Positions 34,667 to 40,512 of a DNA stretch of 64,000 bases are shown piece after piece (the stretch's first letter is position 1; every line of letters begins with the position of its first letter). Source of the DNA: Geoalkalibacter ferrihydriticus DSM 17813 (GTDB lineage: Bacteria; Desulfobacterota; Desulfuromonadia; Desulfuromonadales; Geoalkalibacteraceae); NCBI RefSeq assembly GCF_000820505.1, contig NZ_JWJD01000005.1, forward strand, positions 20,655 through 84,654, read 5' to 3'. The notes beneath the pieces are model-generated. The model was not told the DNA's origin, ran no database searches, and saw only the letters and a program-made list of their open reading frames with translations. A program made the position numbers and the translations under genes.

Positions 34667-35614
34667 CTAAAAAAACCGAGCTCCGGCCGAACCAACGCTT
34701 CCCAGCAACAATGATGTTCCGAGAAACACGATGAACAGTGCGCCGCCGACGGCAAATAAGGCATAGGTGGTGCGGAACACCCGCGGGGAGGTCGAAGTCA
34801 GGCGCATGACGGCGCCGCGCGAGCCCAGGGTGATGATGCCCACCAGGGAATTGGTCAAGCCCATGCCGATGGCCAGGACGACCATGGCGGCCAGGCCCGC
34901 CCATAAAATATCGAGACTTAAGGTGAAGAGCAGAATGAGAGCCGCCCCGGGACAGGGAATCAGGCCGGCCGACAGGGACAGAGCCGCCATGCTGGTGCGG
35001 TCGGCATCGGCACGGGCTTGCTCTGATACGGGCTTGCGCCGGGCAAGGATGTCTTTGGCCGCCTTAAGCAGCAGAAAGCTTCCGATAAGAATGATGAGCA
35101 GATAACTGAAGGGCTGCAGTCCGCCCTCCAACTCCTGAAAAGCGAAGATATTGGTTTTTCGTCCCAACAGGGCGAGGGCAAAAACCACGGCGGTGGCGGA
35201 AAGAACGTGCATGAAGGTTATCAGGTTACCGAAGAGCAGCGCCTGTCTGAGGGTGCCCCGGCGCGCCAGAAAATAAGCGCAGACGATGGATTTTCCGTGA
35301 CCCGGCCCCAGCGCGTGGACCACCCCGAAGGCAAAGGTCAGGGCCAAAAAGCGCAGGGTCGTGCCGCCGGTGGGCTTTTCCTGAATTTGTCGGGCATAGC
35401 CGGTCATGTGTTCGCGAAAGTCGCGTTGCAGGGCGTTGAGCCTGACCAGCAGAGGGTTGATCGTGGCCGGTTTGCGGCGGCTCTCCGCCTGTTCTTCCGC
35501 AGTGTTTTGGGAAGGCGTCAGGAAGGGATTCTGTGCCCGGCCCGGCGCGGCCTGCTGAGCGCCGACGAGAAACACACACAAACACAAAAAAGCCAGGACC
35601 GATTTATTGATCAT
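34667..35614 (-). CDS. NicO/RcnA-family nickel-cobalt transporter
   Basis: 315 residues. A cleavable signal or first helix (about 1-19) precedes a hydrophilic stretch (30-85), then about six membrane helices. The signature HALGPGHGKSIVCAYFLA in the first core helix and LIPCPGAALILLF in a later one identify the NicO family, which moves Ni2+ or Co2+. It overlaps the upstream DUF1007 gene by four bases (ATGA). That pairing is widespread and suggests a metal-export unit. Direction and metal are not proven by sequence. Confidence 0.88.
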   Translation of the reverse strand: MINKSVLAFLCLCVFLVGAQQAAPGRAQNPFLTPSQNTAEEQAESRRKPATINPLLVRLNALQRDFREHMTGYARQIQEKPTGGTTLRFLALTFAFGVVHALGPGHGKSIVCAYFLARRGTLRQALLFGNLITFMHVLSATAVVFALALLGRKTNIFAFQELEGGLQPFSYLLIILIGSFLLLKAAKDILARRKPVSEQARADADRTSMAALSLSAGLIPCPGAALILLFTLSLDILWAGLAAMVVLAIGMGLTNSLVGIITLGSRGAVMRLTSTSPRVFRTTYALFAVGGALFIVFLGTSLLLGSVGSAGARFF

Positions 35615-36216
35615 GACGCTTTCATGAACTCCAGATGCAATGCGCGGGGTGCGAATAGGGTGCCGAAGAGTTCCGATGAGGAATCCTCGCGCAGCTCATG
35701 CACGACGCGCAGGTTTGCTGGCTGTTCGACCTGTACCGGTTGGCCCCTGTGCCAAGTGAAGTCGACGAAGATCTCAGGGTCCCTGGCCATGAAACGAACG
35801 GATTTGGGCGTGGCGATGGCCGCTACCGTACAGGGCACGAAGAACTCGTAAACGGCTTGGTTGTTGGTGAAGCGAACCTGGAAATCCCTCACAAATTGCA
35901 CACGAAACTCCTGTCCGTCGATCCACACCTGGGAAAAATATTGATAATTCCGCAGGTTGTCGAAAAGCTCGGCCTTGATGCGGGCTGCCTGCTCCGGTGT
36001 GGGGGCGTTGCCTTGCAACTCGGCGATCTCTCGGATCTGCTCGCTGAATATCTCGTCAAAAGTCCATTGCAGGCGAAACCCTTCCAATCCCTGCTCATTG
36101 AAGACAACGGTAACGGAGTAGTCCACCCAGACATGAGGATGGGCCGCTGCCGGGAGAGGCAGGGCCAGAAGCAGCAGAAGCAGCGGCCAGAACGAAAAAA
36201 CTTTAATTTTATGCAT
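35611..36216 (-). CDS. DUF1007 periplasmic protein
   Basis: 201 residues. A signal peptide (about 1-25) ends PAAAHPHVWVDY; the HPHVW motif right after cleavage is the hallmark of DUF1007 and may bind metal. The remainder is a beta-rich domain (VVFNEQGLEGFRLQWTFDE). It probably delivers or receives metal for the NicO transporter encoded by the overlapping gene downstream. The open frame extends 31 codons upstream, but signal-peptide position favours the ATG at 36216. Ribosome binding site weak. Confidence 0.85.
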   Translation of the reverse strand: MHKIKVFSFWPLLLLLLALPLPAAAHPHVWVDYSVTVVFNEQGLEGFRLQWTFDEIFSEQIREIAELQGNAPTPEQAARIKAELFDNLRNYQYFSQVWIDGQEFRVQFVRDFQVRFTNNQAVYEFFVPCTVAAIATPKSVRFMARDPEIFVDFTWHRGQPVQVEQPANLRVVHELREDSSSELFGTLFAPRALHLEFMKAS

Positions 36217-36435
36217 GATTGAATGCCCAGCTTGGCTTGATGGTTTGGTTCTGCAGGGAGCCTGCGATTGCGGCAAGGAAGTATATCGCGGACCAGCTGG
36301 CTGCCGCAACCAGATCCGTAGCGAGATTGGTGATCCCGCAGTGATCGGGCCGTCAAGTGAGGTATACTGAGAGGGGACAGAAAGAGTTTTTTTCCCTAAG
36401 GCTGGGCACGAAGAGAATCAGAAAGGAGAGCCGTC

Positions 36436-36531
36436 ATGGCCGAAGGCAAGCATGCTGACGGAATGGAAAAGAGGGGTCGCGGCAAGCCGACTTCTCATCG
36501 ATTGGCCGTGATCTCGTTCCCTTGGGATTGA
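36436..36531 (+). CDS. small ORF, 31 aa, ending inside a terminator hairpin
   Basis: 31 codons from an ATG preceded by AAAGGAGAGCCGTC, a strong site. The product is very basic (MEKRGRGKPTSHRLAV) and unlike any family I know. Its stop codon lies within the stem of the hairpin at 36505-36540, so ribosomes on it would disrupt that stem. This is the layout of a leader peptide or attenuator. Confidence 0.35.
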   Translation: MAEGKHADGMEKRGRGKPTSHRLAVISFPWD

Positions 36532-36550
36532 GGTCACGGCTTTTGCATTT
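36505..36550 (+). terminator. terminator or attenuator hairpin
   Basis: GCCGTGATCTC (36505-36515) pairs with GAGGTCACGGC (36530-36540) with one mismatch, followed by TTTTGCATTTTG. It overlaps the last nine codons of the 31-codon ORF. Confidence 0.6.
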
Positions 36551-36674: not shown

Positions 36675-36703
36675 TTGACAGGGTTTTGCGCTGGGAGTAT
36701 ATG
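36675..36703 (+). promoter_or_regulatory. sigma-70 promoter of the ATP-grasp/KamA operon
   Basis: TTGACA at 36675-36680 and TATATG at 36698-36703 are separated by 17 bases, close to consensus. Transcription would start near 36710 and give an untranslated leader of about 165 nt. Confidence 0.7.
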
Positions 36704-36710
36704 ACGAATA

Positions 36711-36875
36711 AGCGTCAGTGTTCAGGACCGGGACCCCGCAAGACGTGCCCGCTGAAAAGTTGACCCCTTTTAAGCCGCAAGCCGCTCCTGGCTAACCGGT
36801 GCCGAAGACGCTGCCGCCATCCCCCGCAAGGGGATCTGGATTTTAGGCGATTGGCTATTTCAAAAGGGGTTGACC
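36711..36875 (+). promoter_or_regulatory. structured leader that can mask the ribosome binding site
   Basis: AGCGTC (36711-36716) can pair with GACGCT (36807-36812), closing a domain with inner stems CGGG/CCCG (36729/36748) and AGCC/GGCT (36780/36790). ATCCCC/GGGGAT follows at 36819. ACCCCTTTT (36763-36771) is complementary to AAAAGGGGT (36862-36870), which contains the ribosome binding site of the first gene. The two pairings involve overlapping regions, as in a riboswitch or protein-bound leader. I could not assign it to a known class. Confidence 0.5.
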
Positions 36876-37958
36876 ATGAATATTGCGCTTTCCTTCAATC
36901 TGAAGGGAGAGTCGCCAGACGTACAGGATGCGTCCGGCGAACCCCCCTCGGAACCTCCCGGCAGCCTTCCCGACGACATCTACGCCGAGTGGGACGACAT
37001 CCATACCATCAATGCGGTGGCCGACGCCCTGCGCTCGCAACACCAGGTGACCCTGGTCGAAGCGGACCTCAACGCCTTTGAGACCTACCGTGCTTTGCGC
37101 CCGGATCTGGTGTTCAATATCGCGGAAGGATTGCACGGGGTCAGCCGCGAGGCGCAGATTCCCGCCTTGCTCGACATGCTGGGGCTGCCCTATACGGGCA
37201 GTGATCCGGTGACCCTGGGGATGTGCCTCGACAAACGGCGCACCAAGGAAATTCTGAGTCATCACCGCGTCGCCACGCCGCGCTTTGTGGTGGTGGCATC
37301 CCTGGGCGACATTCCTGCGCGTTTCACCTATCCGGCCATGGTCAAGCCGACCCTCGAAGGTTCAAGCAAGGGAGTGACGGACAAGGCGCTGGTGCGCAAC
37401 CGGCGTGAGCTGGTGCGCCAGGTGCAGTGGGTGCTGGAGACCTACAACCAGCCGGCGCTCATCGAGGAATTTCTGCCCGGGCGCGAGTTCACCGTGGCAT
37501 TGATCGGCAACGGCGCAGAGCTGCGTGTGCTGCCCATTGTCGAGATCAATCTCGATGCCCTGCCCGCCGAGGTGAATCCCATCTATTCCTACGAGGCCAA
37601 GTGGCTGTGGGATCAGGAGCACGACCCCCTGCAGATCTTCACCTGTCCGGCGCAGCTTGAGCCGTTGCTGCGCCGCCAGATCGAGGAGCTGTGCAAGCGC
37701 GCCTTCCATGCCCTGGGCTGTCGCGACTGGTGCCGCATCGACGTGCGCCTCGATGCGCGCGGACTGCCGCAGATCATCGAACTCAATCCCCTGCCCGGCA
37801 TTCTGCCGCGCCCCGAGCAGAACAGCTGCTTTCCCAAGGCGGCGCGAGCAGCCGGGCTGTCTTACGACCAGCTGATCCTGGCCGTGGTCGATGCCGCAGC
37901 CCTGCGGCTCAATCTGCACGCGCAAGGGGGGTGCCGTGAAAGTCGCGGTCAGCTTTAA
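36876..37958 (+). CDS. D-Ala-D-Ala ligase-like ATP-grasp protein 1
   Basis: 360-residue ATP-grasp ligase of Ddl-like form. The N-domain has PDLVFNIAEGLHGVSRE and LGLPYTGSDP, matching the Ddl substrate region. The central part has YPAMVKPTLEGSSKGV and LIEEFLPGREFTVALIG. The C-domain has CRIDVRLDARGLPQIIELNPLPGILP with the metal/ATP-binding Glu-Asn. It should join a carboxylate to an amine using ATP. True Ddl usually sits with mur genes, which are absent. The ATG at 36876 has AAGGGG seven bases upstream. First of four tightly packed genes. Confidence 0.85.
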   Translation: MNIALSFNLKGESPDVQDASGEPPSEPPGSLPDDIYAEWDDIHTINAVADALRSQHQVTLVEADLNAFETYRALRPDLVFNIAEGLHGVSREAQIPALLDMLGLPYTGSDPVTLGMCLDKRRTKEILSHHRVATPRFVVVASLGDIPARFTYPAMVKPTLEGSSKGVTDKALVRNRRELVRQVQWVLETYNQPALIEEFLPGREFTVALIGNGAELRVLPIVEINLDALPAEVNPIYSYEAKWLWDQEHDPLQIFTCPAQLEPLLRRQIEELCKRAFHALGCRDWCRIDVRLDARGLPQIIELNPLPGILPRPEQNSCFPKAARAAGLSYDQLILAVVDAAALRLNLHAQGGCRESRGQL

Positions 37959-38946
37959 CCGGGTTCCGCCGCTACTGGTGCAGGGCGAAGCTCTCGATCG
38001 CATCTCCGAGGAAGGCGCCGAAGCCGAGGCCCAGGCGGTCGCCGCAGCTCTGCGCGCACTCGGCCACGCGCCGCAGCTGGTGGCTTTGGGAGACGACATC
38101 GCCCCCTTTGTCGGCGCGCTGCGCGCCGCCGCGCCCGCGCTGGTGTTCAACCTGTGCGAGGGCTTCTGGGGCCAGAGCCGCAAGGAGATGCATGTTGCGG
38201 CGCTGCTTGATCTGCTCGGTCTGGCTTTCACCGGGGCCGCGCCTCTGTGCCTGGGATTGACCCAGGACAAGGCGCGCACCAAGGATCTGCTCAGCCGTCA
38301 TCAGCTGCCCACCCCCAAATACCTGCTGGTCAAGCTCGGCGAGCAGTATCCGCGGGTGCGCGACCTGGCCTATCCCCTCATCGTCAAGCCGCGTTTCGAG
38401 GATGCTTCGCTGGGGATTTCCAACGAGAGCGTGGTGGATAATGAGCGCGAGCTCAAGGCGCGCATCGACTACGTGCATCGCACCTACCGCCAGGGTGCTT
38501 TGGTAGAGGAGTTCATCGAGGGCCGCGAAATCAACGTCGCGGTCATCGGCAACGGCCCCCACGAGGTGCTGCCCCTCTCCGAAATCCGCTTTCATTCCGA
38601 TCTGGTGCGTCCCATCGTCAGCTATGAGGGCAAGTGGCTCGAGCAGTCGCAGGGCTACCAGGGCACTCAGCCCCTGTGTCCGGCCAATCTCAAGGGCCGC
38701 GATGCAATCCTGGTGCGCGACGTGGCGCTGCGCGCCTACAAGGTCATGGAATGCCGCGACTACGCCCGCGTCGACATCCGTTTGCGCGACGGCGTGCCCT
38801 ATATTCTCGAAGTCAACGCCAATCCGGACATCTCCCCGGATGCGGGCCTGGCGCGTTGCGCCGGGGTTGCGGGCATGACCTATCCGCAACTGATCCGCCG
38901 CGTTCTGGAGATGGCCGCGCAACGCAGGGAGGTCGCTCGTGCGTAA
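37936..38946 (+). CDS. D-Ala-D-Ala ligase-like ATP-grasp protein 2
   Basis: 336-residue paralogue of the preceding gene product. Parallel motifs are LVFNLCEGFWGQSRKE, LGLAFTGAAP, YPLIVKPRFEDASLGI, LVEEFIEGREINVAVIG and ARVDIRLRDGVPYILEVNANPDISP. The start is a GTG (VKVAVSFN) after AGGGGGGTGCC; it overlaps the first ligase gene by 23 bases, implying coupled translation. Two different ligases in a row suggest stepwise addition of two amine substrates, or a heterodimer. The longer open frame upstream runs in the other gene. Confidence 0.85.
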   Translation: MKVAVSFNRVPPLLVQGEALDRISEEGAEAEAQAVAAALRALGHAPQLVALGDDIAPFVGALRAAAPALVFNLCEGFWGQSRKEMHVAALLDLLGLAFTGAAPLCLGLTQDKARTKDLLSRHQLPTPKYLLVKLGEQYPRVRDLAYPLIVKPRFEDASLGISNESVVDNERELKARIDYVHRTYRQGALVEEFIEGREINVAVIGNGPHEVLPLSEIRFHSDLVRPIVSYEGKWLEQSQGYQGTQPLCPANLKGRDAILVRDVALRAYKVMECRDYARVDIRLRDGVPYILEVNANPDISPDAGLARCAGVAGMTYPQLIRRVLEMAAQRREVARA

Positions 38947-39421
38947 TCTCAAGGCAACCGATGTGCCCGATCTGGTGCGGATTCTCGAAGCCACCGGGGC
39001 GTTCAGCGAAGAGGAAGTGGGTGTGGCCGTTGAGCTGCTCGGCATTGTGCTCAATGATCACAGCCAGCAGGATTACGAGGTGGCGGTGGCCGAGGTCGCG
39101 GGCCGCGTCGCCGGCTATGTGCTGTTCGGGCCGGTGCCCCTGACTCAGGGTAACTTTGATCTGTATTGGATTGCCGTCGACCCGACGACTCAAGGTCACG
39201 GCATCGGGCAAAAGCTGATGTCGCATGTGGAGGAGCAGGCGCGCGCCCGCGGCGGACGCCTGGTGTGTCTGGAAACGTCCTCGCAAGGAAACTATCAGCG
39301 CACCCGGCGCTTTTACGAGCAGGCCGGCTATGTTGAGGAATCACGCATCCGTGATTTCTACAAGCCGGGCGATGATCGCCTGACTTATGTCAAACGTTTC
39401 ACCTCCCGCGAGGAGAGATAA
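38939..39421 (+). CDS. GNAT-family N-acetyltransferase
   Basis: 160 residues. The GNAT core includes YWIAVDPTTQGHGIGQKLMSHVEEQA, with the acetyl-CoA loop QGHGIG, and CLETSSQGNYQRTRRFYEQAGY. It should acetylate an amine, plausibly the product of the aminomutase or of the ligases encoded beside it. It is shorter than AblB, the beta-lysine acetyltransferase (about 270 residues), so it is not simply that enzyme. The GTG start follows AGGGAGGTCGCTC and overlaps the second ligase gene by eight bases. The aminomutase gene begins five bases after its stop. Confidence 0.88.
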   Translation: MRNLKATDVPDLVRILEATGAFSEEEVGVAVELLGIVLNDHSQQDYEVAVAEVAGRVAGYVLFGPVPLTQGNFDLYWIAVDPTTQGHGIGQKLMSHVEEQARARGGRLVCLETSSQGNYQRTRRFYEQAGYVEESRIRDFYKPGDDRLTYVKRFTSREER

Positions 39422-39426
39422 GCGAT

Positions 39427-40512
39427 ATGGAAACCTGGCAAAAAATACTTCAGGCTGCTATTACCCGCCCCGGTGAGGTGACCCGGCGCTTCGGCATCGA
39501 CCCCGCGCCGCTTGAGGCGGTGGCGGCGGAATACCCCATGCGCATCAACCCCTATTATCTGTCCCTGATCAAGGAAGTGGGCGATCCCATCTGGCGCCAG
39601 GCGGTGCCTTCCGCAGAAGAGTTGCAGGACAGCGTCTGTCCGGCCGATCCCCTGGAGGAGGAAAACCAGAGCCCGGTGCCCAACCTGGTGCACCGCTACC
39701 CGGATCGCGTGCTGTTTCTGGTGTGCTCCGAGTGCGCCATGTACTGCCGCTTCTGTACGCGCAAGCGCAAGGTCGGCGGTGAGAACATGCAGATCACTCG
39801 CGAGAGCATCGAGGGCGGATTGGACTATATCCGCAACCATGGGGAAATCCGTGACGTGATTCTCTCCGGCGGTGATCCTCTCCTGCTTTCCGACGAAAAA
39901 CTCGACGGGATTCTCAAAGCCCTGCGCGCCATCCCCCATGTGGAGATCATCCGCATCGGCTCGCGCGTGCCGGTGGTGCTGCCGCAGCGCATTACGCCGG
40001 CCCTGGTGCGGGTGTTGCGTAAGTACCACCCGCTGTTTCTCAATACGCACTTCAATCACCCCGACGAGATCACCGAGCAGGCCGCCAAAGCCTGCGCGCG
40101 GCTGGCCGATGCGGGCATCCCCTTGGGCAACCAGTCGGTGCTGCTGCGCGATGTCAACAATGATCCGGCGGTGATGAAACGTCTCATGCAGAAGCTGCTC
40201 GCCATCCGCGTGCGGCCCTATTATCTGTATCAGGCCGACATGGTGCGCGGCACCAACCACTTCCGCACCTCGGTGGAGGAGGGCCTGGAAATCATCCGCG
40301 CCCTGCGCGGCCACAGCTCGGGCCTGGGTGTGCCGGCCTACGTCATCGACGCTCCCGGCGGCGGCGGCAAAATCCCGCTGCTGCCCGACTATCTGCAAAG
40401 CCTCGGCGAAGAGGTGGTGCTCAAGAACTATCTGGGCGAGACTTATCGCTACGCCAATGTGGCGCAGGAGGTGCCCGAGGAACGGCGGCGGGTGGCCAAC
40501 GAGCAGGGATGA
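39427..40512 (+). CDS. KamA-family radical SAM/PLP aminomutase
   Basis: 361-residue aminomutase. The 4Fe-4S/SAM motif is Cys103-x3-Cys107-x2-Cys110, and GGDPLLL follows. PLP would bind Lys315 in APGGGGKIP. Asp271 (YQADMVRG) and Asp308 (VIDAPG) align by spacing with Asp293 and Asp330 of lysine 2,3-aminomutase, which hold the lysine side-chain amine, so lysine rather than glutamate is the likely substrate. It is shorter than typical AblA (about 416), lacking part of the C-terminus. It is last in the four-gene operon, and a hairpin follows at once. Confidence 0.88.
   Translation: METWQKILQAAITRPGEVTRRFGIDPAPLEAVAAEYPMRINPYYLSLIKEVGDPIWRQAVPSAEELQDSVCPADPLEEENQSPVPNLVHRYPDRVLFLVCSECAMYCRFCTRKRKVGGENMQITRESIEGGLDYIRNHGEIRDVILSGGDPLLLSDEKLDGILKALRAIPHVEIIRIGSRVPVVLPQRITPALVRVLRKYHPLFLNTHFNHPDEITEQAAKACARLADAGIPLGNQSVLLRDVNNDPAVMKRLMQKLLAIRVRPYYLYQADMVRGTNHFRTSVEEGLEIIRALRGHSSGLGVPAYVIDAPGGGGKIPLLPDYLQSLGEEVVLKNYLGETYRYANVAQEVPEERRRVANEQG

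Follow-up and report, generated by a model that had tools for sequence, protein, structure and literature searches.

The operon and its leader

The window, by which we mean the whole stretch of 64,000 nt analysed from Geoalkalibacter ferrihydriticus DSM 17813 (NZ_JWJD01000005.1, 20,655-84,654; genome G000), carries an operon of four genes. They encode two Ddl-like ATP-grasp ligases (A and B), a GNAT acetyltransferase and a KamA-family radical SAM aminomutase resembling lysine 2,3-aminomutase (Table 1). The same gene order is found in nearly all of the homologous loci that are long enough, including those from Planctomycetota and Gemmatimonadota. Compared with 2a5h, the KamA protein keeps the aspartates of the QxD and VxDAPGGGG segments, which we take to be the lysine-binding residues of that lysine 2,3-aminomutase. 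It scores under the NCBIfam TIGR03820 (AblA) cut-off (478 vs 525 bits), and a separate true AblA, above the cut-off at 768 bits, is encoded elsewhere in the genome (G000:C3:104230-105474). On both counts, the identification of the operon enzyme as the osmolyte AblA was rejected. Judging from the gene content, the product of the operon is probably a beta-lysine-type compound, with the ligases and the acetyltransferase joining or capping it. The ablA-ablB pair, proposed as Nepsilon-acetyl-beta-lysine genes for Pelobacter carbinolicus (PMC3543383), likewise combines a KamA-type aminomutase with a GNAT enzyme, but the operon here adds the two preceding Ddl-like ligases, and its KamA falls below the AblA cut-off.

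The operon is preceded by a 165-nt leader (36711-36875). The initial annotation placed this leader behind a near-consensus promoter, and such a promoter is indeed present, with 172 nt between its -10 box and the operon start codon at 36876. A TTGAC[A/G] box, a 17-nt spacer and a TA-rich hexamer recur in nearly all the leaders, and the distance to the ATG is similar (155-176 nt for most). The leader DNA is 89-93% identical to that of three relatives in the genus; the match extends upstream to 36672, three bases beyond the -35 box, and the DNA upstream of the promoter differs among the members of the genus. Since the upstream flanks differ in this way, the promoter, leader and operon form one unit. 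Upstream of the promoter there is a small reading frame, MAEGKHADGMEKRGRGKPTSHRLAVISFPWD (36436-36531, + strand), with a good Shine-Dalgarno (SD) sequence, ended by a strong terminator-like hairpin (36503-36542, -26.6 kcal/mol). One genus relative (G002) has a stretch partly similar to this frame elsewhere in its genome (66% over 18 aa). Divergent NicO (nickel-transport-like) and DUF1007 genes occupy 34670-36219 on the - strand.

Table 1. Coordinates of the leader, its structural elements and the operon in the window, and of the short reading frames that follow copies of the RNA in loci L132, L133 and L134.
Feature	Coordinates	Strand	Remarks
Promoter	36675..36703	+	TTGACA 36675-36680, 17-nt spacer, TATATG 36698-36703
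P1, 5' strand	36712..36731	+	GCG.CAGUGUU..GGACCGG; constrained folds and covariation
J1/L1, mostly unpaired conserved loop	36733..36758	+	GCAAGACG..GC..AAAA; invariant or nearly invariant alignment columns
Pseudoknot strand (anti-SD) GUUGACCCCUUUU	36759..36771	+	13 pairs with 36862-36874
Helix B, 5' strand AGCC	36773..36776	+	pairs with GGCU 36853-36856
P2 hairpin	36780..36793	+	AGCC-loop-GGCU; 95-97% of cells paired in the nearly invariant GCC/GGC stem
P1, 3' strand	36796..36817	+	CCGGU.CC...GACGCUG.CGC; constrained folds and covariation
P3 hairpin	36819..36835	+	AUCCCC-CGCAA-GGGGAU; no uninterrupted T run after it
Helix B, 3' strand GGCU	36853..36856	+	complementary in relatives
Pseudoknot 3' strand AAAAGGGGUUGAC	36862..36874	+	holds SD AAGGGG (36864-36869)
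Ligase A, Ddl-like ATP-grasp, first gene	36876..37958	+	Pfam Dala_Dala_lig_C 1.7e-35
Ligase B, second Ddl-like ATP-grasp	37936..38946	+	Pfam Dala_Dala_lig_C 8.9e-32
GNAT acetyltransferase	38939..39421	+	Pfam Acetyltransf_7 and Acetyltransf_1
KamA-family radical SAM aminomutase	39427..40512	+	lysine 2,3-aminomutase-like; PDB 2a5h E 1.7e-118
Short frame after SD, L132	from ~4810
Short frame after SD, L133	from ~4544
Short frame after SD, L134	~8930-8840	-

Comparison to catalogued RNA families

With Rfam 15, the window gave no match at the gathering score except a tRNA, the leader searched up to E 10 gave only a chance match to a CRISPR repeat (E 5.8), and 12 homologous loci searched up to E 1 gave none. 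The lysine, cobalamin and glycine riboswitches were compared because of the amino-acid-type operon. The initial annotation had judged that the leader does not fit these classes, and this agrees with the absence of any match to their models, at the gathering score in the window and up to E 10 in the leader. No earlier description appeared among the open-licence papers listed for kamA together with riboswitches or for Desulfuromonas motif RNAs.

Helix P1 and the small stems

The first gene of the operon was used to gather homologous loci from 136 Desulfuromonadales genomes and from GTDB contigs, from which 62 distinct upstream regions were extracted and 48 leaders aligned. When the leaders were folded singly with both strands of the SD helix masked, a long helix, P1, was common to most of them. 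In an unfitted MAFFT alignment of 20 leaders, all from a clade other than that of the window, 11 of the 16 P1 pairs are changed on both sides. The covariation score over all 22 pairs of the core is 0.305 in that alignment, versus 0.153 +/- 0.012 when shuffled and no more than 0.131 when the partners are slid. In a fitted alignment of 48 matches, which is biased towards its own structure, 15 of the 16 P1 pairs vary at both positions and the score is 0.371 versus 0.160, with at most 0.101 for slid partners. By these comparisons, P1 is a conserved secondary structure with compensatory changes. About 60 cells of the fitted pairs are G-U, which on the opposite strand would appear as A-C mismatches; the conserved molecule is therefore the RNA of the + strand, the transcribed one.

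Compensatory change among homologous leaders had been put forward as the test of the leader, with a lack of covariation counting against it, and the long-range helix P1 passes. The initial annotation also spoke of a long-range closing stem without saying which. If P1 was meant, the stem is conserved. The minimum-energy fold instead pairs the 5'-terminal AGCG..CAGUGUUCA of the leader (36711-36724) with the beginning of the coding region, in a duplex of -16.1 kcal/mol in the window but only -9.3, -9.3 and -5.5 kcal/mol in the three genus relatives, and this stem was rejected as a conserved element. The several small stems that had been described are present as the hairpins P2 and P3. At the site of P3, many relatives have a hairpin of a different sequence, and in J1/L1 the relatives hold an internal stem of 2-3 bp. 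Clusters of conserved unpaired bases stand out as invariant columns in alignments A1 and A2.

Pairing of the Shine-Dalgarno sequence

A CCCCTTTT segment had been reported as complementary to the ribosome-binding site, and the complementarity extends to 13 pairs: GUUGACCCCUUUU pairs with AAAAGGGGUUGAC at 13 of 13 positions, two of them G-U. A second element, AGCC with GGCU, forms helix B, and the SD duplex is put at -20.3 kcal/mol. The paired motif ACCCCTTTT-N80-100-AAAAGGGGTT occurs once in the 64-kb window and in none of 100 shuffles. All 51 leaders examined have the anti-SD/SD complementarity, with scattered mismatches. With its two strands nearly invariant, this helix shows only slight covariation: 343 cells are paired, versus 335 +/- 4 when the 3' arms are swapped between sequences, and 64 of 2000 swaps reach 343. 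The expectation of compensatory changes in this pairing is borne out by scattered instances and only slightly by the covariation overall. As read from the alignment, the SD helix rests on conserved complementarity and scattered compensatory changes more than on covariation. Helix B, at 405, is far above letter-shuffled arms (300 +/- 12) but is equalled or exceeded by 47 of 300 swaps of arms, and so does not stand above swapped arms. Compensated forms of it are specific to clades (CCAGC/GCUGG and AGCCAC/GUGGCU; CAACC/GGUUG in the leaders L065 and L068; AAAGCCU/AGGCUUU in L026 and L034), and from these alignments its support, too, comes more from conserved complementarity than from covariation.

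P1 encloses the anti-SD strand in its loop, and the SD is located past the 3' strand of P1, so that the two helices cross and the fold is a pseudoknot. A rough sum of energies gives -44.0 kcal/mol for the fold with the SD arms masked plus -20.3 for the SD duplex, the pseudoknot penalty excluded, versus -59.0 kcal/mol for the nested minimum. The crossed and nested folds would by this estimate be similar in energy, which would suit a switch. A local AAAAG/CUUUU hairpin was considered as an anti-anti-SD, but it is worth only -0.4 kcal/mol in the window and remains an idea only. The SD itself is of the GGGG type without GGAG in 49 of 51 leaders, whereas among the 266 long reading frames of the loci only 39 are preceded by this type, an enrichment that is only suggestive since the start codons of the background set are rough.

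The SAM-II, SAM-V and preQ1-II/III riboswitches are H-type pseudoknots that include the SD and act on translation initiation. The leader is like them in topology, as deduced from P1 and the SD helix, with the SD as the 3' strand. It differs from them in conserved sequence, in its long P1 with an inner hairpin and in the genes downstream, and their Rfam models match neither the leader (up to E 10) nor the 12 loci (up to E 1). An H-type pseudoknot containing the SD is not by itself sufficient for membership in the SAM-II, SAM-V or preQ1 classes.

Distribution of the RNA

A covariance model (R1) was built from the 20 leaders of the other clade, with the window's clade left out. It recovers the window (E 3.8e-4) and the left-out clade. 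A second model (R2) has matches at E < 1e-5 in 47 of the 136 Desulfuromonadales genomes, and a sample of 395 genomes across the phylum adds only one from outside the order (G284), at the same operon. Among the 47 Desulfuromonadales genomes carrying a close ligase A, the leader is at the operon in 45, and the remaining two (G074 and G075) have altered leaders. These two leaders (L034 and L026, respectively) keep the core of the anti-SD/SD pairing with an altered P1, and the models give them no significant score.

In Planctomycetota, Gemmatimonadota and others, the homologous operons lack the leader, as judged from their upstream regions and a model search, and a search of viral contigs with the exact conserved-core pattern gave no match. 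Weak model matches in G059 (E 0.002) and G133 (E 0.026), both lying within long reading frames, were discarded. Two divergent leaders, L065 (from a contig labelled Myxococcota) and L068, have the same layout, with a TTGACA-17-TACACC promoter, a P1-like stem and an ACCCC strand, and a GGAG-type SD. In G125 (L135 ~2307-2955), an IS200/IS605-like insert sits in the leader just before the SD and sets the pseudoknot strands about 650 nt further apart. By these searches, the RNA appears largely limited to one order, and its conservation partly reflects shared descent.

The leader might be imagined as an ordinary untranslated region that pairs by chance. Plain single-sequence folding would not argue against that, being only modestly better than that of shuffled sequences (z -1.8; 9 of 200), in part since the folding program cannot represent a pseudoknot such as the conserved fold. 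Given the compensatory changes in P1 and the fact that model R1, from which the window's clade was left out, nevertheless recovers that clade, we give chance pairing next to no weight, and the leader is almost certainly a real structured regulatory RNA.

Copies before other operons

Three copies of the RNA lie away from the KamA operon, each after a TTGACA-17-TAAA promoter. The copy in G086 precedes mgtC and genes for a C39 peptidase, a RimK-like ligase and GCS2. That in G121 precedes genes for C39, RimK-like and GCS2 proteins and an N-formylglutamate amidohydrolase (FGase). The copy in G112 precedes a DUF5698/DUF2179 gene; its CCCC strand is lost (GGUCGC), which damages the anti-SD, and it may have decayed. 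Each of the three has a short reading frame directly after the SD and before the first long gene, and the three frames differ in sequence. No copy of the RNA is present in the loci fetched for the C39 clusters of G119, G122 and G051. The gene immediately upstream of the RNA is mgtE in G086 (L132 3096-4457) and G112 (L134 9174-10535), and the upstream neighbor in G121 is not mgtE. Together with mgtC downstream in G086, the mgtE neighbors make a link to Mg2+ possible.

Neither G121 (76% complete) nor G112 (100% complete) yielded a close ligase A. The initial annotation proposed that the ligand is the product or substrate of the operon. This is doubtful, since copies of the RNA precede other operons too and the KamA operon was not found in two of the genomes concerned, an argument resting on two genomes of which one is incomplete. 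For the same reason, a general cue is more likely than the operon's own product: an ion, or a common metabolite with a role in osmotic or peptide-solute physiology.

Mode of regulation

As the comparison of leaders shows, the loop closed by P1 contains an A-rich junction that is conserved, the small hairpin P2 and the anti-SD strand ACCCCUUUU. This strand is complementary to the SD AAAAGGGG, which lies on the other side of P1 directly before the start codon, so that P1 and the SD helix together make an H-type pseudoknot. In the mechanism that we propose, with the pseudoknot formed, the ribosome would be excluded and the operon off, and with the SD helix open, the operon would be on. Ligand binding would most simply stabilize the pseudoknot, which is the off state, as in the riboswitches whose pseudoknots sequester the SD.

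Other ways of acting on the operon fit the leader less well. The reading frames in the leaders vary from genome to genome and none is conserved. A pattern scan flags P3 (+ strand) as an intrinsic terminator, but the following CTGGATTTTA starts with five bases other than T, and there is no T run after P3 in the relatives. Since there is neither a conserved reading frame nor a clean T run, leader-peptide and terminator mechanisms are unlikely. Occlusion of the SD by the pseudoknot appears the most likely mechanism, and the leader very probably controls translation. A trans-acting small RNA competing for the CCCCUUUU or the AAAAGGGG strand would also act there, and the near invariance of both strands would suit a target of that kind; the covariation of P1 and the pseudoknot topology would then be unneeded, and we consider this very improbable.

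What the pseudoknot responds to is a separate matter. The leader could be the site at which a regulatory protein, or an enzyme of the operon in autoregulation, stabilizes the SD pseudoknot or melts it, and in that case the RNA itself would sense nothing. The many conserved bases and the fixed promoter would fit equally well, and the limitation of the RNA to one order and one other genome among the samples searched is like that of a lineage-specific regulator. Autoregulation by an operon enzyme is made unlikely by the presence of the RNA before operons that share no obvious gene. The binding sites of CsrA have a GGA core, which the SD here, AAGGGGU, does not have, and no catalogued protein-binding leader is matched. 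On balance, a protein site seems unlikely.

The pseudoknot might instead be a physical sensor, of temperature, ionic strength or Mg2+, K+ or Na+, with no dedicated small-molecule pocket, which we rate as slightly less probable still than the protein site. The similar energies of the crossed and nested folds and the mgtE and mgtC neighbors speak for it, as does the Na+-I riboswitch (DUF1646 motif) that in Dehalobacter is reported to control ablA, a lysine 2,3-aminomutase gene, is tied to osmolyte synthesis and acts via terminators (PMC9337991). Na+-I is a precedent for the control of lysine 2,3-aminomutase by RNA and resembles the leader here in its position in front of such a gene, but it differs in structure and mechanism: the leader here is unmatched by the Rfam model, shows no terminator and stands before a KamA that is not AblA. 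Also against a physical sensor, the conserved unpaired bases in J1 and around P2 exceed what a simple melting hairpin needs, and the copy in G121 has no mgtE upstream.

These conserved unpaired bases, together with the recurrence of the RNA in front of other operons, suggest direct binding of a ligand, and a riboswitch is the reading of the leader that we favor. Overall, 36711-36875 is best explained as a cis-regulatory RNA, conserved and pseudoknotted, which acts on translation and probably binds a ligand. The riboswitch logic that the initial annotation read into this locus is thus plausible on sequence grounds, with a structured leader covering the SD, compensatory changes in P1 and no catalogued family to account for it; its proposal for the ligand is the part that has become doubtful.

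Implications

The leader is probably a new riboswitch, and its knot has been conserved across about 46 genomes of related bacteria. It is an orphan leader RNA, absent from Rfam and well supported, and it marks a four-gene pathway that is conserved in several phyla. A screen for its ligand is straightforward, given a short RNA, about 46 natural variants and a clear reporter readout. More tentatively, and at somewhat less than even odds in our estimation, it may represent a new riboswitch class of the Desulfuromonadales, in which one cue would co-ordinate two different ATP-grasp peptide-type pathways, that of ligase/GNAT/KamA and that of C39/RimK-like/GCS2/FGase, and the ligand could be one new to riboswitches, such as a beta-amino-acid or peptide solute. 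With the RNA recruited to other ATP-grasp operons, its ligand would tie uncharacterized pathways to one signal.
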